This document shows, piece by piece, positions 3,252-26,360 of a stretch of 33,025 nucleotides of DNA. The translations under genes and the position numbers were made by a program. Position 1 is the first letter of the stretch; every line of letters begins with the position of its first letter. The stretch spans positions 1 to 33,025 of the IMG/VR virus record IMGVR_UViG_3300046321_000306; one strand, 5' to 3'. Origin of the DNA: a virus. The notes below the pieces were generated by a model. It saw only the letters and a program-made list of their open reading frames with translations, ran no database searches and had not been told where the DNA came from.

Positions 3252-4820
3252 TCAATTGAAACGCCCAGTCAGCGCCTTGATTTTTCCGGCGTGAGGGTTT
3301 GCAAATAAAGTCGACGTGTTGTTCTTGATCAGTACCAGGTGTTCGAACATCACATTCAGATTGCGCCGAAGCATTGCGATCTCTGTACCCGAGAAATAGA
3401 ACGACAACTTCATCTCAGTTCCTGGAGGAATCTTGAAACTCACCAACTTACGTTGGGCAGTCCCATAACCACGCGCGTTGAAATCACTGCGGAAATCAGC
3501 CAGGTGATCTGCAATTCGCCTTGTTGCCAGATCCGTCAGAGAACCGTATGTCGAATCCACCCCTTGAATCTGGTACGTGATTGTTCGAGCAACGTTGTCT
3601 GCAGCCACCCCGCTTTGCTGCTTGTTCAGTGTGTGACAGAAAACCGAGGACAGCTCACCAGCGGCACTGAACAGTTTCAGAGGGTACAGGTCAATCTGCA
3701 TTTGATCAACGTAGATCCCCGACAATGCCGCATCACGGTAGTCGTGTGCTTTGAAAATCAGATCTAAACAAGCAAGCCCAGTCGTGACTTGTTTGCTAAG
3801 AATCAGCTTTGCACTCAAGCAGATGTTGCCGGCAGGGGCCGCATCGAGCTGAGCAATGGTGAGACCTTGAATGATGTTCCCTTGCGCACCGATTGCGTAG
3901 GTGTCGCTGTCAACGACACCTACAGCTTCAGCCACTGGGAAGAACAGAGGAACTTCAGCATTGAACGGAATCGGCGATATGAACGATGTGTTCCCCGCCG
4001 CTAAGAACTGGCTTGGAGAGCTGATCAGCAGCGCCCTGGCAGTCGCTTCAGCAGTCTTCGCGCCCTGCGTGAGTTCTTCCGCCAGCCGAGAAACTCGACC
4101 GACCTCCGATTCGATCTTTGCAACTTCATCGTTGAGCTTGATGATGAAGTTCATTGCCAGGGCGGCTGAAGTCGCTGCGGTTTTCGCTTGAGCCAGCGCA
4201 CCTGACGTTGTGTTGAGTTGCCGATCATCCAGCAACTGTGTGAGTGCTTGGATGTGTGAATCGATGTACTTCAGCAGCTGATCATGTCCGATCTGATCAC
4301 CCAGCAAAAGCGTGCTGCGAACACGTTCAATCGCCTCGACCAGGTACTCAAACCCGATACCATCACCCAGTGGTTCCAAGTGAAGAACCGGATCAAAAAC
4401 TTCTGGGCGGTTGACGATGTTCGGCCATTCGATCGGCCGATCATCTTTCATCAGGTTATCCAGCAGGAGCCTGATTCCGTCGTAGGCTTTCTCATAGCCA
4501 CCACCGACTGCTTGGTAGCTGACTTGAATATTGTTGCTGATTGCTGGATTGATGATCAAAATGGTGGTGAAAACTTCCTTGCCACTCTGAGCAGACGGGA
4601 GCGACACCAGGTCAACACACCGATAATCCGCACCGCGCATCAGACGCTTATTGCCGATCGTGTCAACCACGATCAAAGAGCCTGCGTAGTACGGGCCATA
4701 CTTCGTCACGACACTGCGATACTTGCGCGTCGCAAGTACGTGTGATTCACCAGAAACCAGGTTGTCGGTGCTGCTACCGGTCAGATCCAGCGGATAACGA
4801 GAGGGGAGTAAGTTGGACAT
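3252..4820 (-). CDS. Virion/fibre protein, paralogue of the upstream gene
   Basis: 522 residues. Its first 175 or so residues resemble those of the neighbour at 4836-6875: both have a YQA(V/L)GG motif, then a W-x-x-(I/V)-N-(R/H)-P segment, a D-x-hydrophobic-H stretch, and G-x-(E)-(F/Y)-(L/V) followed by a charged helix with R-V. Residues about 185-265 are Ala- and charge-rich and look coiled-coil, which would suit a trimeric stalk. The C-terminal 250 residues are beta-rich and unlike the neighbour. A GGAG lies about 11 bases before the ATG. It is last in a four-gene minus-strand unit. The likely role is a tail fibre, spike or baseplate appendage, inferred from the shared attachment-like N-terminus and divergent tip. 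Confidence 0.7.
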   Translation of the reverse strand: MSNLLPSRYPLDLTGSSTDNLVSGESHVLATRKYRSVVTKYGPYYAGSLIVVDTIGNKRLMRGADYRCVDLVSLPSAQSGKEVFTTILIINPAISNNIQVSYQAVGGGYEKAYDGIRLLLDNLMKDDRPIEWPNIVNRPEVFDPVLHLEPLGDGIGFEYLVEAIERVRSTLLLGDQIGHDQLLKYIDSHIQALTQLLDDRQLNTTSGALAQAKTAATSAALAMNFIIKLNDEVAKIESEVGRVSRLAEELTQGAKTAEATARALLISSPSQFLAAGNTSFISPIPFNAEVPLFFPVAEAVGVVDSDTYAIGAQGNIIQGLTIAQLDAAPAGNICLSAKLILSKQVTTGLACLDLIFKAHDYRDAALSGIYVDQMQIDLYPLKLFSAAGELSSVFCHTLNKQQSGVAADNVARTITYQIQGVDSTYGSLTDLATRRIADHLADFRSDFNARGYGTAQRKLVSFKIPPGTEMKLSFYFSGTEIAMLRRNLNVMFEHLVLIKNNTSTLFANPHAGKIKALTGRFN

Positions 4821-4835
4821 GTTTGTAATGCTCCA

Positions 4836-6875
4836 TTAATTCGCAAGCGCACGAAAATCGCGCACCAATGTTACTAGGTTCAAGCCAAAATACCTAGGAT
4901 TACCAGGCTGGCGAGAGTCAACCAATTCAAGCAGGCAGGCATCTGCTGGCGCTGAGAAGACAAACTGGATGTTGTTTTTGTAGCATCCAGTGGCTGGAAG
5001 TGAAACAGAAGTCGATTGCGTGACCCCATTGATTTTGAGTTTCAAATCCGGCATGTTCTTGTTGTCATAAATCAGGTCGCAGGTTAACACGTACGTCACA
5101 CCAGCATCCAAATCGCACATCTGTTTCCAGAACCCAAGCCCGCCATCAGAGCAGACTTGCAGAATTCTGTTGTATTCAGGCATCGCAGAATAAACCGCGT
5201 CAAAGCCTTCAAAATCCAAAAGAGCAGAGGGGCCAGTGCTGAGGTACTTCAGGCCCTCCTTGACGCTAAGAAGGGCCTTGCCGGGGGTGTTTGTGTATGG
5301 GTAGAAGACACAGTCGCTCTCGAAGTCACAAAGACCAGAGGTGAAGTCCCCATTTGCCACCAAAGTGAACCCAGCGCCGTAATTTAACTGGAGGTATTTG
5401 CTGATGGCGTCGATTTCATAATTGGATAACCTTCGATTCACCACGATGATTTCAGCAACGCTCGCGTCCTGAGTGATCTTGTTGGAGCCGATGTATTTCA
5501 CCGTGTTCGGTGTCTGGGAGAAAACGGGCTCAGCTATGAAGCCACCTGCACCCTTGTAGCTAGAATTCGGTGAGTTTGAGACAATTCGCGACACCGGAGT
5601 ATTGTCGAGTATAGCACACGCAACGTGTACATTTCGTCCATCACCGTACTCACTGCGCGCAATTGCGCCCGTCAGTCCTTGGATGTTCTTAGAATACTCC
5701 AGCAGGGTTTTCTCAGCCAAATTCGCACGGAGGTAGAATGTCTCGTTTGAAAACAAATCAACCACAGATTGTTTCTCGGCTGTACGGGCCAAAACGTAGA
5801 TGACGGTGCTGCCGGCACCAATCTTCAAATCGACGCCGTGTGTTTGCGTCAATCTTGAAAACCCAGAGAACACCCCCGTATTCTTATTCAGATGAGGATT
5901 CTTGCGAATCGTGACATCTAAGCCAGAAAAAATCCGACCCTTTGCTTTATCACGCACCACCAAACCAGCATTCGAATTGGTGATTGTCGAGGCGTCTGTA
6001 AAATCCACCCAGAAGTCTACCCCAGGCAGTTTCAGCGGAAGTGGGAACTTTGTCTGATTGAAAGCGTACTGTTTTTCACAGAGATCTGCCAAGATCATAG
6101 AGGGCAGGGCATTCGCTGCGCGCCTCTCGAAATCCAACCATCCCGTCAATGCACGACCAGTGAGGTCAGTGAGTCTTGCTAAATCGTTTTTCGTATCGAT
6201 CAGAACTTCATGTGTCGCCAGCAGTTTGGTGTCGCTGTCGTCGATCAGAAGAGAAATGGCATCCAGCTTATCGTTGATACCATCTGCTTGCCGGGTGAAG
6301 AATGCGCCCTCAGCTTCTGCAAGGTTGACTTGCAGCAGTCTTTGCTCAGAAACAGTGTCACGATTTCCGATGACATCCTTCACACGAATCAAACTGTCGC
6401 GAACGAATTCCAACCCGTAGATATCCCTCGCATCATGCAAGTGATCTGCAGGTTTGAACTCTTTCGGATGGTTCACAGTCGCCCAATTGACAGACAACAA
6501 GCTGTCCACGTCTTGCATGATTTGTGCAAGTTTTTTGACGTTGATGTGTTTATCCCCACCCAGCGCTTGATAATCCAGACGCACCTCGCCTGTTACAGCG
6601 GCATCGGTGATCAACACGCCACAGTGAATAGGCTTGCCCAATTTGGCGGATGTTTTTACAAGCATCTCGATAGCGGAGTATTGTTGCTTGGTCAGCAAAA
6701 CTTCTGCACCAGAGACGACTTGATACACTTTCAAAGTGTCACTGAAAAAGCAACCCCACTCGGGGAAGATGATCCGGACTTTTTCTCCTGACAACCCGTG
6801 CAGTTCGCTCGTAATTTTGTTTGCAGCTAACACCCCACGCGGGTCGTGCGCCAGTGTAAATTCAGGAATATTCAT
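4836..6875 (-). CDS. Virion/fibre protein with lectin-like C-terminal region
   Basis: 679 residues. The N-terminal 175 residues match the next gene in the unit (YQALGG and H-P-K-E-F motifs). The middle (about 185-275) is helical and charged. From about residue 280 there is a beta-rich region starting VDFWVDFTDAST, resembling LamG/concanavalin-type lectin folds often found in phage adhesins, with an end pattern N-R-R-L-S-x-x-E-I-x-x-I-x-x-Y-L. The last 170 residues begin NGDFTSG and look like a second carbohydrate-binding beta-sandwich of the galactose-binding type. Together this suggests a glycan-recognising tail fibre. Fold assignments come from sequence pattern only. The stop lies 15 bases before the next gene's ATG. 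The ribosome site is weak (GGATC). Confidence 0.7.
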   Translation of the reverse strand: MNIPEFTLAHDPRGVLAANKITSELHGLSGEKVRIIFPEWGCFFSDTLKVYQVVSGAEVLLTKQQYSAIEMLVKTSAKLGKPIHCGVLITDAAVTGEVRLDYQALGGDKHINVKKLAQIMQDVDSLLSVNWATVNHPKEFKPADHLHDARDIYGLEFVRDSLIRVKDVIGNRDTVSEQRLLQVNLAEAEGAFFTRQADGINDKLDAISLLIDDSDTKLLATHEVLIDTKNDLARLTDLTGRALTGWLDFERRAANALPSMILADLCEKQYAFNQTKFPLPLKLPGVDFWVDFTDASTITNSNAGLVVRDKAKGRIFSGLDVTIRKNPHLNKNTGVFSGFSRLTQTHGVDLKIGAGSTVIYVLARTAEKQSVVDLFSNETFYLRANLAEKTLLEYSKNIQGLTGAIARSEYGDGRNVHVACAILDNTPVSRIVSNSPNSSYKGAGGFIAEPVFSQTPNTVKYIGSNKITQDASVAEIIVVNRRLSNYEIDAISKYLQLNYGAGFTLVANGDFTSGLCDFESDCVFYPYTNTPGKALLSVKEGLKYLSTGPSALLDFEGFDAVYSAMPEYNRILQVCSDGGLGFWKQMCDLDAGVTYVLTCDLIYDNKNMPDLKLKINGVTQSTSVSLPATGCYKNNIQFVFSAPADACLLELVDSRQPGNPRYFGLNLVTLVRDFRALAN

Positions 6876-6919
6876 GATGAAGATGATCCAAAAAGTCGAT
6901 GATTCAAAGAATGATCAGG

Positions 6920-6955
6920 CATAATGCGCTGGGAAATCTACCCCAGCGCATTATG
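6920..6955 (-). terminator. Hairpin between two minus-strand virion genes, CATAA-boundary family
   Basis: A perfect 14-bp stem (6920-6933 with 6942-6955) with an 8-base loop, beginning CATAATG and ending CATTATG. It lies in the 88-base gap between co-directional minus genes. In the direction of those genes the sequence after the stem is not T-rich, so it may attenuate, protect a 3' end, or act with a factor rather than be a simple intrinsic terminator. Confidence 0.55.
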
Positions 6956-6963
6956 TTTTATGA

Positions 6964-7581
6964 TCAAGTGATCAGTTTTGTTTTGATGTAGTTTTCCAGT
7001 ATCTCAAGTCGTGCTTTGAGATCGTGGTTCTCTTTCTCCAGCTTCCCGACTCTCAGGATCGGATTGTCGTTGCGATCAATCGTGTCTCTCCGATGGGTCG
7101 TGATCGCGTGATGCATTTCGTGAGAGAGCATCACACTGGGACCATAAACCACTTCCTTGACATCGCTGCCAACGCCGAAACGGGCCGTCACCAAGTCACT
7201 GATCTCTTGCTTGATCAACTCCAGCTCAGTGGACTCAGGAATCGCCTGCAGTGCGCAGCAAAGCATCATCATCGTGTACGCCACACCGTTCGAGTCAGGG
7301 ATCTTCTCAATGAACGAGTTGGGGATCTGGATGATGTCACCATCGCTGGATTGCAGCGTGATGACTTTCACGTCATTTTCTAAGTCTCGGCGGAACTGCA
7401 GTGATGAGATTCCGTACGGAGCATAAACAGTGTCGTACGGCAACTCCCCTTGACTCTCCATACCCGCTAAGCTTTTGACTGCTAAGCAGGTGTAGCGAAT
7501 ATTGTCCGGAACGTGCGCGTTGTAGGGCGCCAGCGTAACGAACGTCCCAATCAAACCCACTTCGGGATAGATTCCAATCAT
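6964..7581 (-). CDS. Unknown protein of the virion operon, C-terminal coiled coil
   Basis: 205 residues. Residues 1-130 are mixed alpha/beta without a motif I recognise. Residues about 150-165 read LSHEMHHAITTHRRD, a His-rich helix which resembles an HExxH-like zinc motif but has S-H-E-M-H-H order (H-E-M-H-H fits HExxH literally). Residues about 175-200 are a charged heptad coiled coil. A GAGG lies 8 bases before the ATG at 7581, and the upstream gene's stop is only 13 bases away, so the two are translated together. The literal HEMHH could be a metal-binding site, but I see none of the other features of a metallopeptidase, so no enzyme name is given. A small structural or assembly role is the contextual guess. 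Confidence 0.65.
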   Translation of the reverse strand: MIGIYPEVGLIGTFVTLAPYNAHVPDNIRYTCLAVKSLAGMESQGELPYDTVYAPYGISSLQFRRDLENDVKVITLQSSDGDIIQIPNSFIEKIPDSNGVAYTMMMLCCALQAIPESTELELIKQEISDLVTARFGVGSDVKEVVYGPSVMLSHEMHHAITTHRRDTIDRNDNPILRVGKLEKENHDLKARLEILENYIKTKLIT

Positions 7582-7594
7582 GTCATCACCTCAA

Positions 7595-8911
7595 TCAGTT
7601 CGTCGGAGCGGTGGCCTTGGTTGCTACCAAGAACCGGATGTTGGCATACGTGACGCTGATGTAGGTGACGTTCGACCGAACAGCGCGGCGATAGCTGGTC
7701 GGCAAATCACTGTAAGCTGTCAGGGTCTCGGCAAAGTAGATCATCTCAGCCAGCTTCTCCAAGAAACCCTTGGTGAGGGGCTCCATGCGGTTGAAGTCAG
7801 CACTTGTTGAAGACACCGAGATCATGTCCGGGAAGAAGTCTGTGATCTTGTACTTGTTCTCACGGTTATCCGCCCCACCGATGCTCAAGAGTTGAATGCT
7901 CTTGTAAGGGTGCGCCACGATTTGCAAATTCGTGTCGATGAAACCAGCCGTCAGTTCTTGATGCACTTGCTTGGCGTAGGCCAGCTCAGCCAGTGGGCTG
8001 GTTGCCGGGGAGTAAATCCCGCTCACCAATGAGGCTTCATTGATGGCATAATTGTGCCACTTGGGAACAAACAAAAACTCAGTGGACTTGAAGATATCTG
8101 GGAAGATCTTCTTCCAGTCAGCCAGCGGCTTCTTTGACAAGCTCGTGATGTAGTCGATCAGTGCTTGTTTGATTGCATCGGGATTATTCCCCTGAGGACC
8201 ATAAATAAGGAAGGACCAATTCGTTTTGGTCATCACACTCGGATTGAGTGGATTGACGTAGTTGAAGGTCTCTGCCGTGAGGAGTGTCTCAGGGTAGCCA
8301 TCCTTGGCCGCTTGGATGGCATTCAGTGTCTCTGGGTAGGTTACCGTACCCAGGGTCGTCACCACGTCGGTGTAGGTCTGGAAAAACCCATCGATGTCTT
8401 TGAGTGGTGGCACCACGACGATCTGGTATTGATCATAGAGCTTGCGAAAGATTTCATCACTGAAATAGATTGTGGTATAATTGTCCTCAGCAAGTCCAGT
8501 CGTTTTCCACGAAATGAATGTCGGGTACGGCTTGTTCTGGCCCGACAAAACGATTGCACCGCAGTCGAAGTTCAAGGCTGTCGCTTGGAACTCACCTTGG
8601 ACAGCCAGCAAAAAGTCAGCTTTGTTTTCTTGGGTGGTGACGGCTTCTTGACGGGTGTAGATCCACTCCACCACCCGTTTGATTGCGGTCAAAATCGCAG
8701 CAGGTGGTGTGACACTTGTAGCGTCATTTCCTGACGAATTTGCAGACGAGAAGAACTCGTAAATTTGAACGTTGGGCTTTGCAGTCGTGTGAATTTTCAC
8801 ATCACGTGCAAAAGAAGCTGAGTAAGCACTCAGCTCACCAATGATACTGGTCACCCCAGAATCATTACTCACCAAGGGGGTAATCCCTGCAAATCCTTTG
8901 AATTGGTACAT
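7595..8911 (-). CDS. Probable virion structural protein, unknown family
   Basis: 438 residues with no signal peptide or membrane segment. The composition is that of a soluble beta/alpha structural protein, with many aromatic residues and short proline-containing turns. The N-terminus (MYQFKGFAGITPLVSND) is followed by alternating hydrophobic strands. GAGGA lies about 8 bases before the ATG. It is the first gene of the minus-strand unit that ends with the fibre-like pair, and it faces the 9050 gene across a 138-base divergent gap. Baseplate or tail association is suggested by this setting only. I do not recognise the family. Confidence 0.65.
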   Translation of the reverse strand: MYQFKGFAGITPLVSNDSGVTSIIGELSAYSASFARDVKIHTTAKPNVQIYEFFSSANSSGNDATSVTPPAAILTAIKRVVEWIYTRQEAVTTQENKADFLLAVQGEFQATALNFDCGAIVLSGQNKPYPTFISWKTTGLAEDNYTTIYFSDEIFRKLYDQYQIVVVPPLKDIDGFFQTYTDVVTTLGTVTYPETLNAIQAAKDGYPETLLTAETFNYVNPLNPSVMTKTNWSFLIYGPQGNNPDAIKQALIDYITSLSKKPLADWKKIFPDIFKSTEFLFVPKWHNYAINEASLVSGIYSPATSPLAELAYAKQVHQELTAGFIDTNLQIVAHPYKSIQLLSIGGADNRENKYKITDFFPDMISVSSTSADFNRMEPLTKGFLEKLAEMIYFAETLTAYSDLPTSYRRAVRSNVTYISVTYANIRFLVATKATAPTN

Positions 8912-9049
8912 TTGTGTATCCTCTGCGCGTGCTTAAAAAACGTGTATCTTTTCTAGAGAGGCATTTATGCTGTATGCGCTCCCTAGTCCTTCGGTTTAAT
9001 CATACCATTTTCAGCCCTATGGTTGAATGCTTTTGGAGGTCTAAGCGCA
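8912..9049. promoter_or_regulatory. Divergent intergenic region with probable promoters
   Basis: This 138-base gap lies between outward-facing genes, so it should carry promoters for both. It holds two copies of GTGTATC at 8914 and 8942 (28 bases apart), and GGAGGT at 9035-9040 serving the gene at 9050. I cannot identify convincing -35/-10 pairs. Confidence 0.4.
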
Positions 9050-9475
9050 ATGTTCCCCCCGTTTGTCAAAGCCTTTGGGTTGATTTACCCATTCGTTGTA
9101 GAAGTCTTTTTTGGTAAAAAGTACAACAGAAAGAAGAAACCACCACCAGTGACACTTTTAAAGAAAGTGATGCTGGCGGTTGGGGTGGGTTCGTTTCTTT
9201 TATGTTTCTTCCTCGGTAAGCAGCTGTGGGCGGTTTCTGTGGAGAACACCAAGCTCAGAAGAAAAGCTGAGTCCCCTCCAAGACAAATTGAAGTTCCTGT
9301 TGCGGCTTCAGCGCCTCCCCCGCCCGCAGCAGCCGAACCCAATCCGACGCCCTCACCCGTGATTGCGAGGGAACAACCTCCAGTCAAGAAACCCAAAAAG
9401 ACATATCATCAACCTGTACAGAACGAGGATGCGTATGACCGTCATCTTCAAGCATTACAAGGAACAGACCAATGA
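9050..9475 (+). CDS. Small membrane protein with Pro-rich tail; candidate inner-membrane spanin-like protein
   Basis: 141 residues from the ATG at 9050, chosen because GGAGGT lies 9 bases before it; an upstream in-frame TTG is not supported. There is a hydrophobic N-terminus (about residues 4-20), a very basic stretch KKYNRKKK, a second membrane segment (about 37-55, containing MLAVGVGSFLLCFFLG), then a hydrophilic Pro/Ala-rich region with PPPP. Its stop overlaps the start of a lipoprotein gene (ATGA). A membrane protein overlapping an outer-membrane lipoprotein is the classic layout of phage spanin pairs, which disrupt the outer membrane at lysis. The periplasmic part here is Pro-rich rather than a clear coiled coil and there may be two membrane segments, so the assignment is tentative. 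Confidence 0.65.
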   Translation: MFPPFVKAFGLIYPFVVEVFFGKKYNRKKKPPPVTLLKKVMLAVGVGSFLLCFFLGKQLWAVSVENTKLRRKAESPPRQIEVPVAASAPPPPAAAEPNPTPSPVIAREQPPVKKPKKTYHQPVQNEDAYDRHLQALQGTDQ

Positions 9476-9807
9476 AAACGAAACTGCTGAGTTTGCTGCT
9501 GTGCTTGCTTCTGCCAGCTTGCTCGTTTGTTATCCTCCAGAAGGATAATCAAGCCATCATTCCTGCACCCATTGGTACACCTGCTACATTTGTAGGGCCT
9601 GCTCAGCCTGAGTGTACGGTGAACAGGCCCTCACCCGAACCTGCACCACTGGCGCCATTGGCCGAATTCAAAGCAATACCGCGAAATGAAAAAGATCGGC
9701 AGATCGATCTGTTGCTGCGACACATTGCACAAGTGAAAGCGGCGTACAACGCACAACAACAAACGTTTTTTGACTATCTGGGGCAAGTGGACCGGTGTAG
9801 AAAATAG
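9472..9807 (+). CDS. Lipoprotein; candidate outer-membrane spanin-like subunit
   Basis: 111 residues with a clear lipoprotein signal: MKTK, then a Leu-rich core and the lipobox LPAC with Cys17 as the lipid-modified residue. Position +2 is Ser, which permits export to the outer membrane. The mature part has a Pro-rich stretch (about residues 30-65) and then a charged helical region (about 68-108). The ATG overlaps the previous gene's stop by four bases, indicating translational coupling. The order membrane protein then Pro-rich lipoprotein fits Rz/Rz1-type spanins in plan, though no sequence similarity to a known spanin is claimed. An alternative is an envelope or exclusion lipoprotein. Confidence 0.7.
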   Translation: MKTKLLSLLLCLLLPACSFVILQKDNQAIIPAPIGTPATFVGPAQPECTVNRPSPEPAPLAPLAEFKAIPRNEKDRQIDLLLRHIAQVKAAYNAQQQTFFDYLGQVDRCRK

Positions 9808-9866
9808 CCTTAAAATACCGCCCTGCCAGATACCATGAGTCCTACATTTTAATAAACACACGCCCC

Positions 9867-11411
9867 ATGACAGACAAAACCACCCCAGTAGTATCGATCA
9901 CCGCTTACACCGACGGTGGCTGCCGACCAAACCCTGGTGACGGCGGTTACGGTGTCCACGCATACACCTATTCGAATGAAGCCCCTAAGAAGGGATCAGG
10001 TAACCCGAACTACTTGGTCACAAACATAGGGTACGTTCACAAAGCCAGAGCAGCAGAGTACGAGCCTCATGAGCTTGTCAAAGTGACTGGTTACATCGAC
10101 GCGTTCGGCTCCATTCCAGGTGTCATTACCAACAACATGGCTGAAATCACTGCTGCCAACTGGGTACTTGAATACGCCAAAAAGAACGAAATAAAGAACG
10201 TCACGATTGTGGCAGATAGCCAAGGTGTTGTCGGTGCTGGCAATGGCTGGCTGGATAAGTGGAGTAGCAACCACTGGATCAAGTCAGACGGCACGCCTGT
10301 CAAAAACCAGGAGTATTGGCGAGCACTGTACACCAATATCAACGCCATCAAAGAAACTGGCGGAGAGGTGACGTTCAAGTGGATCAAAGCGCACAATGGC
10401 CACACGGGCAACGTGGAAGCTGATGAGCTGGCCACCATCGGTGTGCTCACCAAGAAACGCGGCGAAGACAACTATCACAGTGTTAGTCATGAGCCGCCTG
10501 ATGGTTACTGGAACAAAGCTGTCGACAAGCATCCTCTGATCAACCATCGTTGCTTGTACATGTCCACCAACCCGGATCAGTTGGTTCCAGGTGAATATTA
10601 CCTGGGCAACCACGGCAAGGACGATGAATTGACAGGTACCCGAATGGCAGACGGTTACCACGCGTTTGTGAAGCTGTTTGAGCCCGACCCTGCGATCGAA
10701 ACCACACGGCTATTCCAAACAATCGTGACCAATGGGGACCACGAAATCGCCATGGTTCGGCTGGATAAGCTGCTGGAGCGACGTGTCCACTCCATGATCA
10801 CGAAGTATGGGAATCGATGCCTTCAGCGTGGAAAGGGACGTAACCCCGATGTGTTGTTCATCGATGGGTTTGTGGAGACTTCGAGTCGAAAAGACTCCAA
10901 GAAGCCGGCTGCTGAGAAAATCACCCCGTTGAGTAAGATCCTCAACCCGCCACTCTTGGCGCACAGAACACTAGAGCGTGTGAATTTGCTCTACGCGGTT
11001 CTGTCGGGGTACATGTGTAATGACCTGCGGTATTACCCAACTGACATCACCAATCAAATCTACGACGTGGGTGTCAAGAAGAACAAAGCGAAAGAAGATG
11101 AAAAGACCCCCACGCTCAAGAGCGACTTCTCCGCTGGATTTGTTGGGTTTGATGTTGACGTTGTCTTTTCACCGGAAGGACACAAGTGCAAAGTCAATCT
11201 GACCTTAGGGGTGGACACGCCGCCGCGTAACTCCCTCAAGAAGATCGAGCACCTCAACCCGAAAATCGTCGTCATCTCGTGGCTCGAATCTGATCAACTC
11301 TTACGCTACGCAACCGCTGTCTTCACAGACACCGGGTACGGGATTTTCTCAGGAGTGTTCGCTAATCTCCGAGTGATCGCCGCACCAACCACAGGCCCCA
11401 CAGTTGCCTGA
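9867..11411 (+). CDS. Ribonuclease HI domain protein with large unknown C-terminal extension
   Basis: 514 residues. Residues about 10-195 form a type 1 RNase H domain: YTDGGCRPNPG with Asp16, NNMAEI with Glu93, VADSQG with Asp117, and KAHNGHTGNVEADELA with His179 and Asp186. This is the full D-E-D-D set plus the histidine, so it should be active in cutting RNA in RNA-DNA hybrids, for example removing primers during phage replication. There are insertions between the first strand and the Glu compared with the usual 155-residue enzyme. The remaining 320 residues are soluble, with no motif I recognise. There is no obvious ribosome-binding site before the ATG (the leader ends ACACGCCCC), so translation may be weak or depend on another signal. 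Confidence 0.88.
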   Translation: MTDKTTPVVSITAYTDGGCRPNPGDGGYGVHAYTYSNEAPKKGSGNPNYLVTNIGYVHKARAAEYEPHELVKVTGYIDAFGSIPGVITNNMAEITAANWVLEYAKKNEIKNVTIVADSQGVVGAGNGWLDKWSSNHWIKSDGTPVKNQEYWRALYTNINAIKETGGEVTFKWIKAHNGHTGNVEADELATIGVLTKKRGEDNYHSVSHEPPDGYWNKAVDKHPLINHRCLYMSTNPDQLVPGEYYLGNHGKDDELTGTRMADGYHAFVKLFEPDPAIETTRLFQTIVTNGDHEIAMVRLDKLLERRVHSMITKYGNRCLQRGKGRNPDVLFIDGFVETSSRKDSKKPAAEKITPLSKILNPPLLAHRTLERVNLLYAVLSGYMCNDLRYYPTDITNQIYDVGVKKNKAKEDEKTPTLKSDFSAGFVGFDVDVVFSPEGHKCKVNLTLGVDTPPRNSLKKIEHLNPKIVVISWLESDQLLRYATAVFTDTGYGIFSGVFANLRVIAAPTTGPTVA

Positions 11412-11538: not shown

Positions 11539-11955
11539 ATGGACACCACCATCGCCATCAAAGTAAATCCTCTTGTGAGAGCATTTATTTGGGTACTGCC
11601 CGACGCTGCTAAACGAGCCTTACTGATTGGGTCGTTAGCAGCAGTAGCCACCAAACGAACAAAGCACGATCAAATGTTTGTTCAATCCGTCAATCGCTTA
11701 CTGCATTTGACCACAAACGAGCAAGCACTCAATGCACCCGTACAGATGTCGAGCTACATCTGGTCCAACTCCGAGAAGATCGATTTAGAGGTAGATGCGA
11801 TTGAGCATCAGATGCTTAAAGAAGCTGAGCTGCGAGAATGCGCCCGTCGCGTAGCAGCCTCGATTCCAGAATGGTTCCTTTATGATGACCGCGAGACGGT
11901 TGCTGGTGAGATCCTGGAGTTGTTCCAACATCGTAACGAGCTGGTGTTCACCTGA
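11539..11955 (+). CDS. Unknown small protein
   Basis: 138 residues, unrecognised. The N-terminal part (about residues 9-37) is hydrophobic and includes IWVLPDAAKRALLIGSLAAV, which could be a membrane-associated helix. The rest is helical and charged. The ribosome site is weak (GACAGCATC before the ATG). It stands alone between a structured intergenic region and a strong terminator at 11962, so it may be its own short transcription unit. No function is proposed. Confidence 0.6.
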   Translation: MDTTIAIKVNPLVRAFIWVLPDAAKRALLIGSLAAVATKRTKHDQMFVQSVNRLLHLTTNEQALNAPVQMSSYIWSNSEKIDLEVDAIEHQMLKEAELRECARRVAASIPEWFLYDDRETVAGEILELFQHRNELVFT

Positions 11956-11961: not shown

Positions 11962-12012
11962 CATAAACCCCCTGTAAGCCATCCGCACTTGGAGGCTTAC
12001 AGGGGGTTTATG
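11962..12012 (+). terminator. Strong terminator hairpin, CATAA-boundary family
   Basis: A perfect 19-bp stem (11962-11980 with 11994-12012) and a 13-base loop, starting six bases after the stop of the preceding gene. It is followed within about ten bases by a T-rich run (TTTCTTTTTTCTC), as expected for intrinsic termination. Confidence 0.85.
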
Positions 12013-12030: not shown

Positions 12031-12061
12031 TCAATTCCAAATATTTACAGTCATATATAAC
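12031..12061 (+). promoter_or_regulatory. Candidate promoter, AT-rich
   Basis: This AT-rich patch lies just after a terminator and before an operon of small genes. It contains TATATAA at 12054 as a possible -10 but no good -35. The string TACAGTCA (12046) resembles TACAGACA at 19206 before another operon start. This is weak evidence for a shared promoter element. Confidence 0.3.
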
Positions 12062-12136
12062 TACCGTGACCTAATGACACAAATCTCGTTGTTAGGCACC
12101 CAACGCTCATCACGAGCTAACCCCGAAGGAATTGAG

Positions 12137-12601
12137 ATGGATAAGAACGCATGCTGGAACCTCAAGGAGGCGATCGAGAACGCCGCGAATGAAGTTCGTC
12201 AACCGACGCCGCTGGCTATTTGGCTGGGCGGTAACCCGCTGGCCAAAACAATCGTGAGCTTGGTCAGTAGTCTGTCCACCTTCGGGTGGACTTGTGTGGA
12301 TAATCACACTGACAGTGAGATCAAGTACGGTGCTTTTGTCATCGCTGAAGTTGGTGGCGAACTCTACCTTTGCCCCGCGTCGGCTGATGGGTTCAGCATC
12401 AACCCGATCATGCATCGGGCTGGGGTGCGCCCGTTCCTCTCGCAGGGAACGGTTGGCGGGTTCATTCCGAAGACCCGCCACGCGTTCATTGATGACAGAT
12501 TCGCCAAGTTCAACCGGGAATCTGACCCGGTCTGTGATGGTCGGATTCTGATCTATATGTTCGAGAACCAGGACTTGTCCTGGACAGTTCGTGTGATCTA
12601 A
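12137..12601 (+). CDS. Small unknown protein, member 1 of tandem paralogue family
   Basis: 154 residues from the ATG at 12137, chosen because GAAGGA sits 6 bases before it; a longer in-frame start at 12074 lacks a ribosome site. The core reads YGAFVIAEV then ELYLCPASADG, matching AWVIVKDV then EIHFCPITESG in the next gene. Both end with a G-(R/K)-I-L strand near the C-terminus. It is soluble with no membrane segment. I do not recognise the family. The following gene starts 11 bases after its stop. Tandem small paralogues in phage accessory regions are often host-takeover or defence-related, but nothing here shows that directly. Confidence 0.7.
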   Translation: MDKNACWNLKEAIENAANEVRQPTPLAIWLGGNPLAKTIVSLVSSLSTFGWTCVDNHTDSEIKYGAFVIAEVGGELYLCPASADGFSINPIMHRAGVRPFLSQGTVGGFIPKTRHAFIDDRFAKFNRESDPVCDGRILIYMFENQDLSWTVRVI

Positions 12602-12612
12602 AGGGGAAAGAC

Positions 12613-13011
12613 ATGATATCACAAATCTGCACCGGGCCGATCGCGGCGGAATGCCCATTCGAACAACTGTTCACGAACATTGGGCGACTCGCAAAGTCGC
12701 CCAAATTCTACGATCAGAGAGGAACACTGGTCCATGCGACCGCGTGGGTCATTGTCAAGGACGTTGACGGGGAAATCCACTTCTGCCCAATAACAGAATC
12801 CGGCAAGACCCTCCTGACCCCATGCGAGTGGGACGATGGTGCTTGGTGGGAGTACATGGGTCCTGACCTTGGGTCAGTCAGTCTTTTCAACACTGAGACC
12901 CCCTCGGAAATCGTGTTCGATCTCCAGTGGACTCAGGCGTACCGCAGCCCATCGCAGGGTAAAATTCTCTCGGTCTGGAAAGACGGGATCATCTACGATC
13001 TCAAGGATTGA
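12613..13011 (+). CDS. Small unknown protein, member 2 of tandem paralogue family
   Basis: 132 residues with a good AAGGGGAAAG ribosome site. Residues about 44-64 read AWVIVKDVDGEIHFCPITESG, the conserved family core. A Trp- and acid-rich stretch follows (CEWDDGAWWEYMG), then a C-terminal G-K-I-L strand. It is shorter than member 1 at the N-terminus. Its stop is followed one base later by the ATG of a 31-residue gene. The function is unknown. Confidence 0.7.
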   Translation: MISQICTGPIAAECPFEQLFTNIGRLAKSPKFYDQRGTLVHATAWVIVKDVDGEIHFCPITESGKTLLTPCEWDDGAWWEYMGPDLGSVSLFNTETPSEIVFDLQWTQAYRSPSQGKILSVWKDGIIYDLKD

Positions 13012-13012
13012 C

Positions 13013-13108
13013 ATGGAAATTCAACTCAAGCATAAATCAGGGAGGACCATGTGGGTCCCCCTTAGTCTGTTGAAAGTTCACCTGGCTGTTGGCTGGGTTG
13101 TGATCTAA
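13013..13108 (+). CDS. 31-residue microprotein
   Basis: A short frame, MEIQLKHKSGRT then MWVPLSLLKVHLAVGWVVI, starting two bases after the previous stop, with AAGGA five bases upstream of the ATG. The layout (charged N-terminus, K-S-G-R turn, then a helix and a final G-W) resembles small phage proteins with a GR-x-x-x-VP and terminal GW pattern. An intrinsic terminator follows 13 bases after the stop, which makes this the last gene of the unit. It could be chance, but spacing and ribosome site favour a real gene. Confidence 0.5.
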   Translation: MEIQLKHKSGRTMWVPLSLLKVHLAVGWVVI

Positions 13109-13121
13109 GCAGGCGCGGTAA

Positions 13122-13152
13122 GCCCCCACCGTACACGGGGGCGTTCTTTTTT
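13122..13152 (+). terminator. Intrinsic terminator
   Basis: GCCCCC (13122-13127) pairs with GGGGGC (13137-13142) around a nine-base loop and is followed by G and TTCTTTTTT. This is a conventional stem plus U-tract. It ends the unit 12137-13108. Confidence 0.75.
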
Positions 13153-13163
13153 AGTGAATCGTT

Positions 13164-13409
13164 ATGGCAATCACGGCTTTTTCAAGTGATCAGGAAATTG
13201 ATTTCAAGTTGTTGTTTCTTAATCATCGCGCTGCCGAAGCAACCGCCCTGGCACTCAAACAACACACCAGAAAAAGGACGGGGGTTTATTTTGATCAAAA
13301 CACATACACAGCCACGATCGTTGTCTATGACGACTGCCTAAACAAATGGCAGTTTAGCAAAGAAGACAGGTCATTTGTTGTAGATGAAAAATACGTGATC
13401 GAAGTATGA
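13164..13409 (+). CDS. Small unknown protein in accessory cluster
   Basis: 81 residues. An N-terminal helix (about 10-38, Ala- and Leu-rich) is followed by a beta segment, GVYFDQNTYTATIVVYDD, and a charged C-terminus. It lies between two terminators (13122 and 13414), so it seems to be a one-gene unit, with no visible independent promoter. The ribosome site is weak. It lacks the FCP core of its neighbours, and I cannot assign it to their family. The function is unknown. Confidence 0.6.
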   Translation: MAITAFSSDQEIDFKLLFLNHRAAEATALALKQHTRKRTGVYFDQNTYTATIVVYDDCLNKWQFSKEDRSFVVDEKYVIEV

Positions 13410-13413
13410 ACTG

Positions 13414-13458
13414 AGTGCGGGTCTTTTTAGGCCCGCACTACTACCACCCCTTTTTTTT
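13414..13458 (+). terminator. Intrinsic terminator
   Basis: AGTGCGGG (13414-13421) pairs with CCCGCACT (13432-13439), with a T-rich loop, and eight T residues follow at 13451-13458 after a short spacer. It starts four bases after the stop at 13409. Confidence 0.65.
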
Positions 13459-13467
13459 GGTAAAGCC

Positions 13468-13962
13468 ATGCAATCTATCTACTCGGCAAATCCAGCATCC
13501 CCCAAGAAAGCCGCATTTGATGGCTTGCCTTTATTCTACGACGAGTATAAAAAGAAAATCGAAAGATACGTCGCTCATCGAAACTTCTGTCTTGATGAAA
13601 CAGGTGAACGACACACTGTTTTAGCTTGGATATTGCTCCTCAGCTTTCCAAGCAAATCATCAATCACATTGAATTTCTGCCCCGTAACAAACGTAGGTCA
13701 CTGCACCTTACATGAAGCTACCCTCAACATGCAGACGTTCGACATTACGATTGATCGAAGTTCAAAAGTAATGGGGGTTGTATCCTTTACCAGCCCATCC
13801 GTATCGCATTTGATCGAAGAGTTTCTTAACGAGACGCGTTGCTTTGCCGATGATCGTCCCTGGATGATAGAAGCTTATGTGCCGTATAAATCGGGGTATG
13901 TTCACGCTAAACCAGACCGCAATCTTTTTGAAATGTTCCCCGGCGCACTGATCCCAGTTTAA
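13468..13962 (+). CDS. Small unknown protein, member 3 of tandem paralogue family
   Basis: 164 residues with GGTAAAG before the ATG. It is most similar to the next gene: both have a helical N-terminus, then T-G-(E/D) followed by (L/F)AW(I/V) and a hydrophobic strand ending in P, then a CP strand (FCPVTNVG here), later an LI-x-x-F helix, and WMIE-x-Y(V/I)P plus a G-x-V strand near the C-terminus. No membrane segment or catalytic motif is visible. The AT content is higher than in the structural genes nearby. The function is unknown. Confidence 0.7.
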   Translation: MQSIYSANPASPKKAAFDGLPLFYDEYKKKIERYVAHRNFCLDETGERHTVLAWILLLSFPSKSSITLNFCPVTNVGHCTLHEATLNMQTFDITIDRSSKVMGVVSFTSPSVSHLIEEFLNETRCFADDRPWMIEAYVPYKSGYVHAKPDRNLFEMFPGALIPV

Positions 13963-13976
13963 TTTAGAGGCTAAAA

Positions 13977-14408
13977 ATGTCAGTAAAACCAATCCGAACG
14001 AAAGAAGATTTTTTTAAGCTGAGTAACTTCTTCTTTGCGGAACACTTGAAGATGTTACAACACATTGTCTCAAAAACAAAAGTCAAGACAGAAGCAGGTG
14101 ATGAGTTACCTGTTTTTGCGTGGGTTGTACTAATGTTAACTCTGCCTGAAATTGGAGTATGCATGTGTCCAATTTTGAGGTCAGGCGATAACGACTTATA
14201 CGAAACCAAGGTTAAAGCAGACGGTTCGATTATTTTGGATACGCCAATCAGTTACTTGACTCTGAATTTTGAAGACACCAATACAGATGGGCTGATCAAA
14301 CGTTTCCATGAACTACACACCCCAAAACCAAAACAAGGCACAACAGCTTGGATGATTGAGATGTACATCCCAGTCAACGGTAGTCATGTCAAAATAACAC
14401 CAAGATGA
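13977..14408 (+). CDS. Small unknown protein, member 4 of tandem paralogue family
   Basis: 143 residues, AGAGG eight bases or so before the ATG. It carries the family core FAWVVLMLTLP then CMCPILRSG, and shares WMIEMYIP with WMIEAYVP of member 3, so the two are a recent or well-kept duplicate. The start lies 14 bases after the previous stop. The gene ends the plus-strand cluster at a bidirectional hairpin. The two cysteines around CMCP are not arranged as a zinc knuckle. The function is unknown. Confidence 0.7.
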   Translation: MSVKPIRTKEDFFKLSNFFFAEHLKMLQHIVSKTKVKTEAGDELPVFAWVVLMLTLPEIGVCMCPILRSGDNDLYETKVKADGSIILDTPISYLTLNFEDTNTDGLIKRFHELHTPKPKQGTTAWMIEMYIPVNGSHVKITPR

Positions 14409-14422: not shown

Positions 14423-14478
14423 GCATAATGCCCGTATAGAGCTTGCGTTTTATTGCAAGCTCTATACGGAACATATGC
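14423..14478. terminator. Bidirectional terminator hairpin, CATAA-boundary family
   Basis: A perfect 15-bp inner stem (14432-14446 with 14455-14469), loop GTTTTATT, flanked by GCATA on the left and TATGC on the right, which can pair imperfectly. It lies between convergent genes ending at 14408 and 14482. Confidence 0.75.
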
Positions 14479-14481: not shown

Positions 14482-15354
14482 TTATTCCAGCGATTCAGAA
14501 ATCCGGTTCATCGTGACTTCGATACCCCCACGGATCTGAAGCAAGCGGAAGTGCGTCGTCGCGTAGAACTCCAGGTCACGACCAATGTCGTATGCCAGAT
14601 TGGAGAGCCGATTGGCGGCTTCTTGAGAGACCTTGCGGTCTTTGTTCTTGCTGAATTCTTGGATGATGATTTCCAGGTAGTCGTTGCACTGCTTGATCTG
14701 TGCTTGAATCTTCTTGCGGTCCACACCTTCCAACGACGAGATGATAGGGTTGATTTCCTTGAAAACCTTCTCCCAGTCACCATTGCGCTCCACCACATCA
14801 CGCACACGTGTCAGTGCCTTCACAGAGTTCTTCTTGTGGAGCTTCCCAAACGAGTCGTAGTGATGATGCCGGATCTTTTCTTGCCCCTCCAGCAGCTTCT
14901 TGTCGTCGTATGTCGATGTTGAGAAACGCTGATCAGAAACGAACTGACCCAAGAAGATCAGGTACTTGCTCACCTTCTCGGGCACACCCACCGCGTACTG
15001 GGTGGCTTGCTTCAGGGTCGCAAGATATTCCAAGTACGTGCAGCTCGATCCCTCGACCGTCTGAGCTTGAATTTCACCCAGACTGGTGTAAGGGATTGCC
15101 TTGATGAGGGCCAGAAATTTTCGTTGATCTTTTGGCAGCTCATCAATGACAGGCATGTCGGTGAAACCGACCATGGCTTTCAAGGTTGAGGTGACCTGGG
15201 TCGCCAGGGCTTTGAACACGCCGCTGACCGAAGCAAAGTTGATGGACTCCATGCCCACCACGAGATCGGTGTTGACAACCGTTTCGAAACTCTTTTGCGC
15301 CATGGCTTGGGCGTTCAGCGCCATGACGGCATCAGCTTGTGTAGGGTAGGTCAT
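14482..15354 (-). CDS. Unknown, mainly helical protein
   Basis: 290 residues, almost wholly helical by composition, with long charged segments from about residue 150 to the end (for example KKLLEGQEKIRHHHYDSFG, and a C-terminal region ending MNRISESLE). No signal peptide or catalytic motif is seen. The ribosome site is weak (AAGAAAG further upstream). It is a single minus-strand gene transcribed away from the recombinase gene across a 128-base divergent gap. A soluble virion-internal or scaffold-like role is possible for a helical protein of this size, but I do not recognise it. Confidence 0.65.
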   Translation of the reverse strand: MTYPTQADAVMALNAQAMAQKSFETVVNTDLVVGMESINFASVSGVFKALATQVTSTLKAMVGFTDMPVIDELPKDQRKFLALIKAIPYTSLGEIQAQTVEGSSCTYLEYLATLKQATQYAVGVPEKVSKYLIFLGQFVSDQRFSTSTYDDKKLLEGQEKIRHHHYDSFGKLHKKNSVKALTRVRDVVERNGDWEKVFKEINPIISSLEGVDRKKIQAQIKQCNDYLEIIIQEFSKNKDRKVSQEAANRLSNLAYDIGRDLEFYATTHFRLLQIRGGIEVTMNRISESLE

Positions 15355-15482: not shown

Positions 15483-16928
15483 ATGAGCTTCGATATCCTG
15501 CCTCAATTTGAAGAAACCGACGATGTCAAACCATCGGTGAACGTCGGTGCGCTGATGGATATCCCCACAGGAACGTACCAGTTTGGACGTTACCGGGAAT
15601 CGATCTTGAATGGCGGTGTCGGCATTCTGACAGGGATTGTGGGTCAGGGCAACAACTTCAAATCCACCATCCAGGATTACCTCACGTTGACGGCTTCTTC
15701 TCGGTTTGAGTTCACTCGAATCGACACCTACGACACTGAAGTCAACGTCAACAAACAACGCAAGACCAAACTCGCACAAGCCATCGAGCGGTACAAAGAC
15801 CGCAACCTTTTGGCCGAGGGGATTTGGAAGATTTCCGATCGCACCGTCTACTTCGCAAACAAGTGGTACGAGAAGTTCAAAGAGTTTGCACAAGAAAAGA
15901 TCAAGCAAAAAGTCAAGTTCACACGAGAGACTCCGTTCCTTGAGTTGGACGGAACGACCCTGATGAAGTGGCTCATCCCCACGTTCACGCAGATCGATTC
16001 GTTCAGTGAATTCGAAACGGAAGACATCGTCAACATCCAAGACGAAAATGAACTTGGCGACAGTGGTGGCAATACCATCCACATGCGGCAAGGTTTGGCC
16101 AAGATTCGTTTCTTGAGCGATGTGCTGCGCTACATCTCACGCGCTGCCAATCCGATGTTCTTGACGGCCCACGTCGGCAAAGACATCCCGATGGATGCCC
16201 GTGCAGGCCCCGTCAAAAAGCTCACCTTCTTGAAAGGCGGCGACAAGATCAAGGGAGTGACGGACAAGTTCATGTTCTTGACCTCTCTGTGCTTGCACAG
16301 TCAGAATGGAACCGTTTTCTTCAACGACACCACCAAGGGCCCGGAATACCCGCGTGACTCGGATGACAAGGTCAAGGGCGATACCGACCTTTTCACTGTG
16401 ACCGTGATCATTTTGCGAAACAAGAACGGCCCCACAGGTCTGGTGATGACACTGCTCGTTTCTCAACGAGAAGGCGTTCTTGGCCCTCTGACGGAATTCC
16501 ACTACGTCAAGACCAACAATCGCTACGGCATCGGCGGTAACCTGCAGCACTACTTCATGGATCTGCTGCCGGACGTTTCGCTTTCACGCACGTCGGTGCG
16601 GTCAAAGCTGGTAGAAAATGCACAACTTCGCCGTGCAGTGAACATCACTTCCGAGATGTGTCAGATGTTCCACCTCTGGGACCGCGAGGATGACCTGTAC
16701 TGCTCGCCCAAACAACTCCGAGAAGACTTGGAATCGATGGGGTATGACTGGAACATCTTGCTCAACACGCGTGGTTGGTGGACGCTGGACAACGACAAGC
16801 AAGAAGTCCCGTTCCTGAGCACGCTGGACCTTTTGCGCATGCGAAAGGGCCTGTACCATCCGTATTGGCTGGCGGAAGACAAACGCACGATCCTGACGTA
16901 CGCTGAGATCAAGAAGAAGTTCCACTGA
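15483..16928 (+). CDS. UvsX/RecA-like recombinase ATPase
   Basis: 481 residues. An N-terminal linker leads to IPTGTYQFG and then a P-loop, GQGNNFKST at residues 54-62 with Lys60. The Phe before the Lys in place of the usual Gly is the form seen in T4 UvsX (NFKS). A region around residue 79-85 (IDTYDTE) may be the acidic strand that follows. FLTAHVGKD around His230, followed by a Gly-rich loop with FLKGGDKIKG, corresponds to the strand-4 and L2 DNA-binding region of RecA-family recombinases. The C-terminal 160 residues are a helical domain with Trp-rich segments. It would coat single-stranded DNA and drive strand exchange in phage recombination-dependent replication. A DnaB-type helicase is less likely given the P-loop. 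It heads a plus-strand run of genes. Confidence 0.75.
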   Translation: MSFDILPQFEETDDVKPSVNVGALMDIPTGTYQFGRYRESILNGGVGILTGIVGQGNNFKSTIQDYLTLTASSRFEFTRIDTYDTEVNVNKQRKTKLAQAIERYKDRNLLAEGIWKISDRTVYFANKWYEKFKEFAQEKIKQKVKFTRETPFLELDGTTLMKWLIPTFTQIDSFSEFETEDIVNIQDENELGDSGGNTIHMRQGLAKIRFLSDVLRYISRAANPMFLTAHVGKDIPMDARAGPVKKLTFLKGGDKIKGVTDKFMFLTSLCLHSQNGTVFFNDTTKGPEYPRDSDDKVKGDTDLFTVTVIILRNKNGPTGLVMTLLVSQREGVLGPLTEFHYVKTNNRYGIGGNLQHYFMDLLPDVSLSRTSVRSKLVENAQLRRAVNITSEMCQMFHLWDREDDLYCSPKQLREDLESMGYDWNILLNTRGWWTLDNDKQEVPFLSTLDLLRMRKGLYHPYWLAEDKRTILTYAEIKKKFH

Positions 16929-17972: not shown

Positions 17973-17983
17973 AAAGACCAGTG

Positions 17984-18400
17984 ATGATTGTCCCAGCCAC
18001 CGACTTGAACAAATACAAGGTGCGGGTTATCTTTGCAGGTAGTCGAAACTATCACGGCTACGCCATGATTGCTGTTCATGCCCGACAGATGGTGGTTCAG
18101 CATGGTCACGACATTGTTTTCATATCGGGCGATGCTAGGACAGGGGCGGATGCCCTGATTAAGCAATGGTGCATTCGTAATCGTCAGCCGATTATTCTGG
18201 TACCAGCACAATGGAACAAGTTCTCCAAGAATGCAGGTTTTATTCGAAACACCCTGATGTCTCGAATGGGTAGCCATTTGGTTGCGTTCTGGGACGGGCA
18301 ATCCCGAGGTACAAAGCACATGATCGAACAAGCCAGGTTCCTGAACCTGGCTGTGAAAGTCATTGAAATTCAAATCGAGAAAGAAAAGCCATGGCAATGA
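17984..18400 (+). CDS. DUF2493/YspA-like SLOG-fold protein
   Basis: 138 residues from the ATG at 17984 (a GTG lies directly before it). Residues 15-23 read VIFAGSRNY, 48-56 SGDARTGAD, 88-92 RNTLM, and 101-110 AFWDGQSRGT. This series (GSR, SGxxxGAD, RN-x-x-M, WDG-x-S-x-GT) is that of the DUF2493/YspA group of the SLOG superfamily, a Rossmann-like fold related to DprA and LOG proteins, thought to bind nucleotides or nucleotide-derived ligands. Many phages carry one and its role is unproven; proposals include nucleotide signalling or NAD-related chemistry. The start lies 11 bases after the RpoB-like gene, and its end overlaps the next gene by 10 bases, indicating co-translation. Confidence 0.85.
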   Translation: MIVPATDLNKYKVRVIFAGSRNYHGYAMIAVHARQMVVQHGHDIVFISGDARTGADALIKQWCIRNRQPIILVPAQWNKFSKNAGFIRNTLMSRMGSHLVAFWDGQSRGTKHMIEQARFLNLAVKVIEIQIEKEKPWQ

Positions 18401-24260: not shown

Positions 24261-26360
24261 ATGTCGTCGAATAACCCAGGACAAATGGATGCCTTAGGCA
24301 CGCTCGCACCCAACCTCACGGGAGAGATTGACTTACCTGGCTTCAAAAAGAACTCGCAGTGGATTAGGCAATCATTCATTGCACCACTGACGGGCGGGCA
24401 GAAGGTCGCTCTGGCGATGGACCCGACCGACATCACCAATCGGTTCTTCTCCAGTGCTGCATTCAAGTACACAGACACCGCACCTGGTGGGAACTTTTGT
24501 ATCAACCCACCACCACAATTCACACCGTACGCCGACATTCCTGTACCCGGCGCTTTGCCGGAAGCTCGGTTTCACACCATCCCCTACTCCAGGGCCCCTT
24601 CTGGGATGGGTCGCTACTACAGTGAAGCAATTGACGACAATAACCAAAACGTCTACCTTCGCTTTGGTGTACCAAGTTACAACTCGCTCATTCAGTTCTT
24701 CACGGGTTTCTACAGCTCCAGCTCAGCCGTCTTGGCCCGCACAGGGCGCTTGGACGACAGCTTCGTCACCAAGTTCTTGAAGTTCGGTGCTTTTGTGATC
24801 GGCATGGCCATCATGCCGCTGACCATCATCCCCATCCTGTTCAATATGGCAGGCATGGCGATCAAATTCCTGTTGAAGATCCCTTCCTCAAAGTTCTACT
24901 ATTTGAAGCCGACTATGCCGGCGTATTGGCATGCTGTCACCAGCATGTTCAATCAAATCTCAGTGAACAAAGGGCTGGTGAAGTACACAGCGCCTGAGAT
25001 ATTCCAGTCGTTCGTTGGTGAGCAAATGAAAGTCACCAATATGGATAAGGATGTCTTTCACCAGATCTTTCCAGAATTCAGCACGAATGGCACCTTGGAT
25101 GTGTATGCCGTAGCCAATCGAGCAAAACGACTTGAACGCAGGCATAACGCAGAAATGTTGCGCCGAATGAAAGACCCCGGTGATGACGGCTGGTATGGTC
25201 GTGTTCGAAAAGTGTACCAAGAAGGTGGGGTTACACAATCAATTCAACAGGCACAGCCTGGTGAGACCAGTCCATTCAGACTGACATCGTTCTGGGATAA
25301 GTGGTTGGCTGCTAAAGACTTGGCGGCAGCTGAGAAAGATTCCATGATTGAGAAAGACATCCGAAAAGGAGCGGATGTTTCCACAGCAGGAACTGTGGAG
25401 GAGGCAATGTCCAAGCTCAAACAGAAGTGGACTTCTTCTGTATCTGCTTCTGCGCTCGAATACTTCTTAGCAAACGCATCTGACGGCAGTGAGTTCGCAT
25501 GCTTCCGAGTTGATGCAACCGGCAGCGTGTCTGAATCGTTCAGTAACCAGACAGCGCCTAACTCAATGGCGCAGAAGCTGAACTCTGCATCTCAAGGTGC
25601 ACGCGATATGAAAATCAACATGGCTGGTGGTAACATCGACCCATGGGGAATCTCCAAAGCAGTGCTGGACGGGGTCGGAACAATTCTCTCCACAGGAGCA
25701 GGACTTCTTCAACTCTCGGGTCTTGCTGCATTCGCCGGGAATGCCTTCGTTGACATCCCCGACAACTGGGAGTCGCATTCCGCCAGCATGCCCGAGACAT
25801 CGTACACAATGACACTTATTTCCCCCTACGGAAATCCAGTGTCTCAGATGTTCAACATCTACTTGCCATTGTGCATGCTTTTGGCTGGTGCGCTTCCGCT
25901 GGCCACGGGTAAGCAGAGCTACCAGTCTCCATTCCTCTGCGAGTTGTTTGATCGCGGGCACAAAATCACGCGACTGGGCGTGATTTCCTCGCTGTCGATC
26001 ACACGTGGAACATCGAACCTAGCATTCAATCGTGACGGCCAAGCCATGGCGATTGACATCACCTTCACGGTGAAAGATCTCTCCAGCATCGTGGCAATGC
26101 CTATTCAACAAGGCTCGTCCGTCATGCCCCTAGAAGGTATCTTTGACGGGGAGACCAACTACACAGACTATCTCCTCACGCTTGGGGGCAACAGCCTGCG
26201 AGAAATTCATGACCGTCTGCCGACTCTGATGCGTCAACTTGACACCAAGATGGCCAACATCAACAGCTACTTCAGCATGTCGCGATTGATGATGGACATG
26301 GGGCAATCTCCTGTCGGTGTGCTGGCAAGTATTTTCATGAAGGGTGCCAGTAAAGACTAA
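24261..26360 (+). CDS. Large probable tail/baseplate virion protein with central membrane-like segment
   Basis: 699 residues. A soluble N-terminal domain (1-165) leads to a strongly hydrophobic stretch at about 171-208, beginning KFGAFVIGMAIMPLTIIPIL. The middle is charged and helical (about 280-400). The last 200 residues include ISPYGNPVSQMFNIYLPL and FTVKDLSSIVAMP: an IDITFTV-x-DL strand pattern seen in tail-tube-like beta domains. This suggests a baseplate hub, tail-tube or injection-related protein, as inference from pattern only. It follows the Ala-rich gene and faces the tape-measure gene across a bidirectional terminator. The membrane-like segment is unusual for a plain baseplate component and hints at a role in DNA passage. 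Confidence 0.65.
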   Translation: MSSNNPGQMDALGTLAPNLTGEIDLPGFKKNSQWIRQSFIAPLTGGQKVALAMDPTDITNRFFSSAAFKYTDTAPGGNFCINPPPQFTPYADIPVPGALPEARFHTIPYSRAPSGMGRYYSEAIDDNNQNVYLRFGVPSYNSLIQFFTGFYSSSSAVLARTGRLDDSFVTKFLKFGAFVIGMAIMPLTIIPILFNMAGMAIKFLLKIPSSKFYYLKPTMPAYWHAVTSMFNQISVNKGLVKYTAPEIFQSFVGEQMKVTNMDKDVFHQIFPEFSTNGTLDVYAVANRAKRLERRHNAEMLRRMKDPGDDGWYGRVRKVYQEGGVTQSIQQAQPGETSPFRLTSFWDKWLAAKDLAAAEKDSMIEKDIRKGADVSTAGTVEEAMSKLKQKWTSSVSASALEYFLANASDGSEFACFRVDATGSVSESFSNQTAPNSMAQKLNSASQGARDMKINMAGGNIDPWGISKAVLDGVGTILSTGAGLLQLSGLAAFAGNAFVDIPDNWESHSASMPETSYTMTLISPYGNPVSQMFNIYLPLCMLLAGALPLATGKQSYQSPFLCELFDRGHKITRLGVISSLSITRGTSNLAFNRDGQAMAIDITFTVKDLSSIVAMPIQQGSSVMPLEGIFDGETNYTDYLLTLGGNSLREIHDRLPTLMRQLDTKMANINSYFSMSRLMMDMGQSPVGVLASIFMKGASKD

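Follow-up and report, generated by a model that had tools for sequence, protein, structure and literature searches.

The window, i.e., the whole stretch of DNA analysed here, is a virus record of 33,025 bases from IMG/VR, which we took as a stand-alone fragment. Judging by its predicted proteins, this 33-kb piece comes from a jumbo phage of the phiKZ-like group (Chimalliviridae type). The UvsX-like gene (15483-16928) matched 259 phage records; among the matches listed all were phiKZ-like jumbo phages, and the best of those listed was Burkholderia phage FLC9 (52% identity). The matches of a 699-aa protein (24261-26360) gave the same picture. The UvsX-like gene is accompanied by neighbouring core genes, in an order (RNase H at 9867-11411, p0, a 290-aa gene, UvsX) that is conserved in most loci.

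Other genes of the window have recognisable domains. A SLOG-family protein related to YspA/cpYpsA (Pfam YAcAr, E 4e-10) is encoded near the UvsX gene (17981-18400, + strand). In a very long, virion-type protein of 2183 aa (26424-32975, - strand), an SLT transglycosylase domain (E 3e-8) occurs together with a match to a VanY-type carboxypeptidase that is below threshold (E 1.5e-4); according to these predicted domains, the protein would combine two cell-wall activities. Two adjacent genes on the - strand (3252-4820 and 4836-6875) encode proteins whose N-terminal regions are related (23% identity, E 7e-17); these proteins are probably tail or fibre paralogues.

Between p0 and the 290-aa gene lie five ORFs, p1 to p5 (Table 1). 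A first-pass annotation had placed four ORFs of this region, starting at 12137, 12613, 13468 and 13977, in a single family; all four are present, and correspond to p1, p2, p4 and p5. Clear ribosome-binding sites precede p1, p2 and p5, and p3 and p4 are without a clear one. The short ORF that follows p2 is no more than a possible gene.

Table 1. Features of the insert and of its flanks (window coordinates).
Feature	Position	Strand	Description
p0	11539-11955	+	Conserved core gene, 138 aa; left flank, outside the family; most fetched loci have a homologue in this position
T1	11962-12012	.	Perfect 19-bp hairpin after p0; CATAA...TTATG ends as in relatives
Early-promoter-like sequence	12040-12070	+	phiKZ-family type; top-scoring site of the window for three published consensus sequences
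p1	12137-12601	+	154 aa; possible distant member (GAFVIAEVGGELYLCPASADG); ribosome site GAAGGAA
p2	12613-13011	+	132 aa; member by sequence comparison (AWVIVKDVDGEIHFCPITESG); ribosome site AAGGGG
Short ORF	13013-13108	+	31 codons, directly after p2 (MEIQLKHKSGRTMWVPLSLLKVHLAVGWVVI); AAGGA upstream
T2	13122-13142	+	G+C-rich hairpin followed by GTTCTTTTTT; predicted intrinsic terminator
p3	13164-13409	+	81 aa; non-member
T3	13414-13439	+	11-bp hairpin; T run slightly further on
p4	13468-13962	+	164 aa; member by sequence comparison (AWILLLSFPSKSSITLNFCPVTNVG; WMIEAYVP)
p5	13977-14408	+	143 aa; member by sequence comparison, closest to p4 (AWVVLMLTLPEIGVCMCPILRSG; WMIEMYIP)
T4	14423-14478	.	Hairpin with 24-nt arms, 83% paired, without a clear T run; separates p5 from the convergent core gene
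Right-flank core gene	14482-15354	-	Conserved, 290 aa, convergent; UvsX-like gene next

The proposal that terminators cut the cluster into small units was right in substance, given the hairpins T1 to T4. The units succeed each other as p1-p2-short ORF, T2, p3, T3, p4-p5 and T4. We detected T1, T3 and T4 as inverted repeats and T2 by folding; an automated terminator scan missed all four. The composition of the insert is heterogeneous: the G+C content is 0.55 in p1 and 0.54 in p2, whereas it is 0.40-0.44 in p3-p5, a stretch with lower G+C than every stretch of the same length elsewhere in the window. This difference suggests that the insert may have been gained in more than one step, or from two sources.

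A cargo slot between two core genes

From viral contigs we retrieved 80 UvsX loci, in which we mapped RNase H, p0, the 290-aa gene and UvsX by profile. Nearly all loci having these genes showed the same order. In the window, p0 and the 290-aa gene are 2526 nt apart, against a median of 64 nt in 62 other loci, a set that includes near-identical loci and therefore represents fewer independent lineages. The gap was at most 80 nt in 57 of these 62 loci and 251-633 nt in the other five. In the closest locus by UvsX (60% identity), L006, it spans 46 nt. The short gaps that we examined contain a hairpin, often with CATA...TATG-like ends. In the window, hairpins of this kind bound the insert on both sides (T1 on the left, T4 on the right), which is what an insertion of cargo next to a terminator would leave.

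Other phages also use this slot. FLC6 (gp54, L005 26685-27143) and the loci L071 and L074 have a single small gene for an SLT-type transglycosylase in it, showing that the slot accepts cargo. As in the window, this cargo is flanked by p0 and the 290-aa gene and has a hairpin on each side, but it consists of one enzyme gene, unrelated in sequence to p1-p5. Hence, the p1-p5 cluster is a lineage-specific insert in an occasional cargo site, which upholds the earlier description of the region as accessory and narrows it to an insert between two core genes. A further insert near this slot, of around 3.7 kb, was observed in L044 between the 290-aa gene and UvsX (6301-9986).

The less conserved accessory genes of the phiKZ family have been proposed to permit specialisation to different hosts (PMC10299810). 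Like those non-core genes, p1-p5 are small, uncharacterised genes, restricted to few members and located between conserved core genes. They differ in including a short tandem family of paralogues with no relative in the records searched, and in being inserted within the conserved gene order from RNase H to UvsX. The arrangement is of an ordinary kind for a jumbo phage, i.e., accessory ORFans; what is new is its location in an insert and its likely early promoter.

Kinship among the encoded proteins

We aligned p1 to p5 all against all and compared the scores with those of shuffled sequences, using BLOSUM62 and BLOSUM45. The proteins p4 and p5 are clearly related by this measure: their alignment, with a score of 103 where shuffles average 28 (z 16, around 26% identity), runs nearly from end to end and includes the WMIE-x-Y-(V/I)P motif, reported earlier as common to the last two genes and indeed found in both. 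The pairs p2-p4 and p2-p5 had z-scores of 4.5 and 2.5 with BLOSUM62, and of 4.1 and 4.0 with BLOSUM45. The alignment of p1 with p2 reached a z-score of 3.8, but over 18 residues only, and those of p1 with p4 and p5 were at chance level relative to shuffles. A profile of p4 and p5 ranked p2 first among the remaining ORFs of the window (405 in all), and none of 1000 shuffles of p2 scored as well. The same profile failed for p1 (281 of 1000 shuffles as good), and a profile of p2, p4 and p5 matched it marginally (64 of 1000 shuffles as good). p3 was rejected as a family member, since it gave no convincing pairwise alignment and failed the test with the p4+p5 profile.

The motif [AG][WF][VI]-x(6-24)-CP[IVA]-x(3-4)-G occurs in five of the 16,001 ORFs in 1.38 Mb of related phage DNA, and four of these five are p1, p2, p4 and p5; since it was drawn from these proteins after the fact, its rarity counts as support rather than proof. 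At the motif, the DNA of p2 and p4 is identical at 13 of 15 bases.

These comparisons bear on a narrower reading, in which only p4 and p5 are true paralogues, p1 and p2 are unrelated orphans, and the AWV...CP core arose by chance or is a convergent beta hairpin. It would fit the results for p1, the low z-score of p2-p5 with BLOSUM62, and the G+C content of p1 and p2, unlike that of p3-p5. Yet, the rank of p2 with the p4+p5 profile and its advantage over all 1000 shuffles, the near confinement of the motif to p1, p2, p4 and p5, and the match between p2 and p4 in DNA make this reading rather unlikely overall, even if it is quite possible that p1 by itself is an unrelated orphan gene. We therefore describe the cluster, from the sequence comparisons, as three members (p2, p4 and p5, with p2 a distant relative of the other two), one possible member (p1) and a bystander (p3). 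The view of p1, p2, p4 and p5 as one repeated, fast-diverging family, whose alignments should exceed shuffles, is thereby retained for p2, p4 and p5, which exceed shuffles in pairwise or profile comparison, and not for p1, which aligns with p2 over a few residues and fails against p4 and p5.

We found no homologue of p1, p2, p4 or p5 in phage records (few hits, all with E of at least 1), nor in the viral contigs of IMG/VR, which were also searched with two profiles. No member of the family turned up in 50 related records searched whole, a set without a positive control, or in bacterial genomes, and PDB gave no homologue by sequence. Pfam has no family for any of p1-p5; NCBIfam gave none above the cut-off, and its single hit, between p2 and an unrelated model, was sub-threshold; PADLOC and PHROGs had no profile match at E up to 1, and Rfam had no match. 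For p3, the searches covered the family libraries and the fetched loci.

The absence of homologues is also compatible with genes of minor function that arose recently or are in decay. The insert could then be neutral or decaying, a mix of fortuitous ORFs and remnants that serve no selected function, a reading to which the low G+C of p3-p5 also lends itself. We consider it quite improbable, given that five complete ORFs follow one another on the same strand and fill the insert, with terminators separating the units, and that p4 and p5 retain full-length frames and conserved residues at their level of divergence, which points to long-term purifying selection.

A candidate early promoter upstream of p1

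Predicted promoters have been published for OBP, N1M2, 201phi2-1 and phiKZ, and that of OBP was deemed early (PMC7058600). The predicted early consensus is BTATATTACDWHDGTG in 201phi2-1 and KATATTATYWWADTG in OBP (PMC7058600). When the window was scored with matrices for OBP, N1M2 and 201phi2-1, the top site was the same for all three. This single site lies inside the insert, 66-97 nt before p1. When the insert was shuffled 500 times, 2-4 of the shuffles scored as high; for the window, this was so in 2-16 of 200. At 12040-12068, 23 of the 29 letters of the OBP consensus fit and six do not; the sequence reads TATATAAC instead of the published TATATTAC/TATATTAT. The bare phiKZ octamer was not enriched in the window overall, and a scan for sigma-70-type promoters gave fewer hits than shuffles.

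In the related loci, sites of the same motif (score of at least 16) are biased toward the direction of UvsX (32 vs 5), and 23 of the 37 fall outside long ORFs, in a fraction of around 14% of the bases. These two biases indicate that the motif behaves as a promoter there. Sequences of the OBP/201phi2-1 early type are frequent in related phages near and downstream of UvsX, with a bias to the + strand (e.g., L081 at 11162, L077 at 11611, L080 at 11844 and L035 at 15183, all + strand). Early transcription of the insert from the candidate promoter is likely on these grounds.

The type of promoter also bears on the idea that p1-p5 encode virion-associated or ejected proteins. Tail and structural genes, including virion-type and cell-wall genes, are indeed present within the same 33 kb. 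Yet, the nearest named neighbours of the insert are RNase H and UvsX, the promoter looks early, and conservation among relatives is common for the virion proteins of such phages, whereas these proteins were found in none of the 50 related records searched. We thus regard a virion role as very unlikely.

Possible roles of the encoded proteins

The AlphaFold models are poor (pLDDT 52 for p5, and 39 for p2 modelled alone); both have a helix followed by two strands at the motif. The p5 model has the order helix, five strands, helix, strand. Fold searches with this low-confidence model found nothing at E 0.001, and Z was at most 4.2, so we assign no fold. Weak structural matches were found to EsaG (Z 3.4, rmsd 5.2, 82 residues, TM 0.35) and to the DUF600 protein BH3703. 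With a possible helix-sheet-helix order in common, one could see in p5 and its relatives immunity proteins or antitoxins of the EsaG/YezG (DUF600) type, in which an alpha-beta sheet protein blocks a nuclease toxin, and the copies would neutralise different toxins of the host or of rivals. Given the quality of the model, Z-scores all below 5, equal scores for unrelated folds, no sequence similarity (no match in Pfam or PADLOC and none above the NCBIfam cut-off) and no cognate toxin recognised in the window, this assignment seems highly improbable.

Our preferred reading, to which we give a probability of roughly 0.42, is that the insert is early-expressed accessory cargo, placed between two convergent core genes, that acts on the host in takeover or counter-defence. 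The promoter-like sequence at the head of the insert, the absence of the family from every related phage examined, and the lack of virion or replication features make host interaction somewhat more likely, and this reading matches the role proposed for the non-core genes of the phage family (PMC10299810). Under it, the virion RNA polymerase would transcribe p1, p2 and the short ORF early, from the insert's own early promoter, and p3 and p4-p5 would likely be expressed in further short units. A tandem duplication likely gave rise to p4 and p5, and an older one to p2. The products may be small soluble alpha+beta proteins that bind proteins of the host or of rival phages, each copy tuned to a different partner. 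As there is no catalytic residue set in common, we would see the common hairpin, AW[VI]...CP[IV]xxxG, as the fold's core and not as an active site. The last step, the action on host or rivals, is an inference.

In its furthest-reaching form, which we hold to be doubtful, the proposal would be that early phage effectors of a new protein family have multiplied in situ in one phiKZ-like lineage, and that each copy binds a different host or defence protein via a common AW[VI]/CP hairpin scaffold. The family makes a small, testable set of candidate host-interaction proteins. In the slot after RNase H and the 138-aa gene and before UvsX, relatives carry nothing or unrelated genes. The comparison of this slot across isolates provides a simple route to the lineage-specific accessory genes of phiKZ-like phages.
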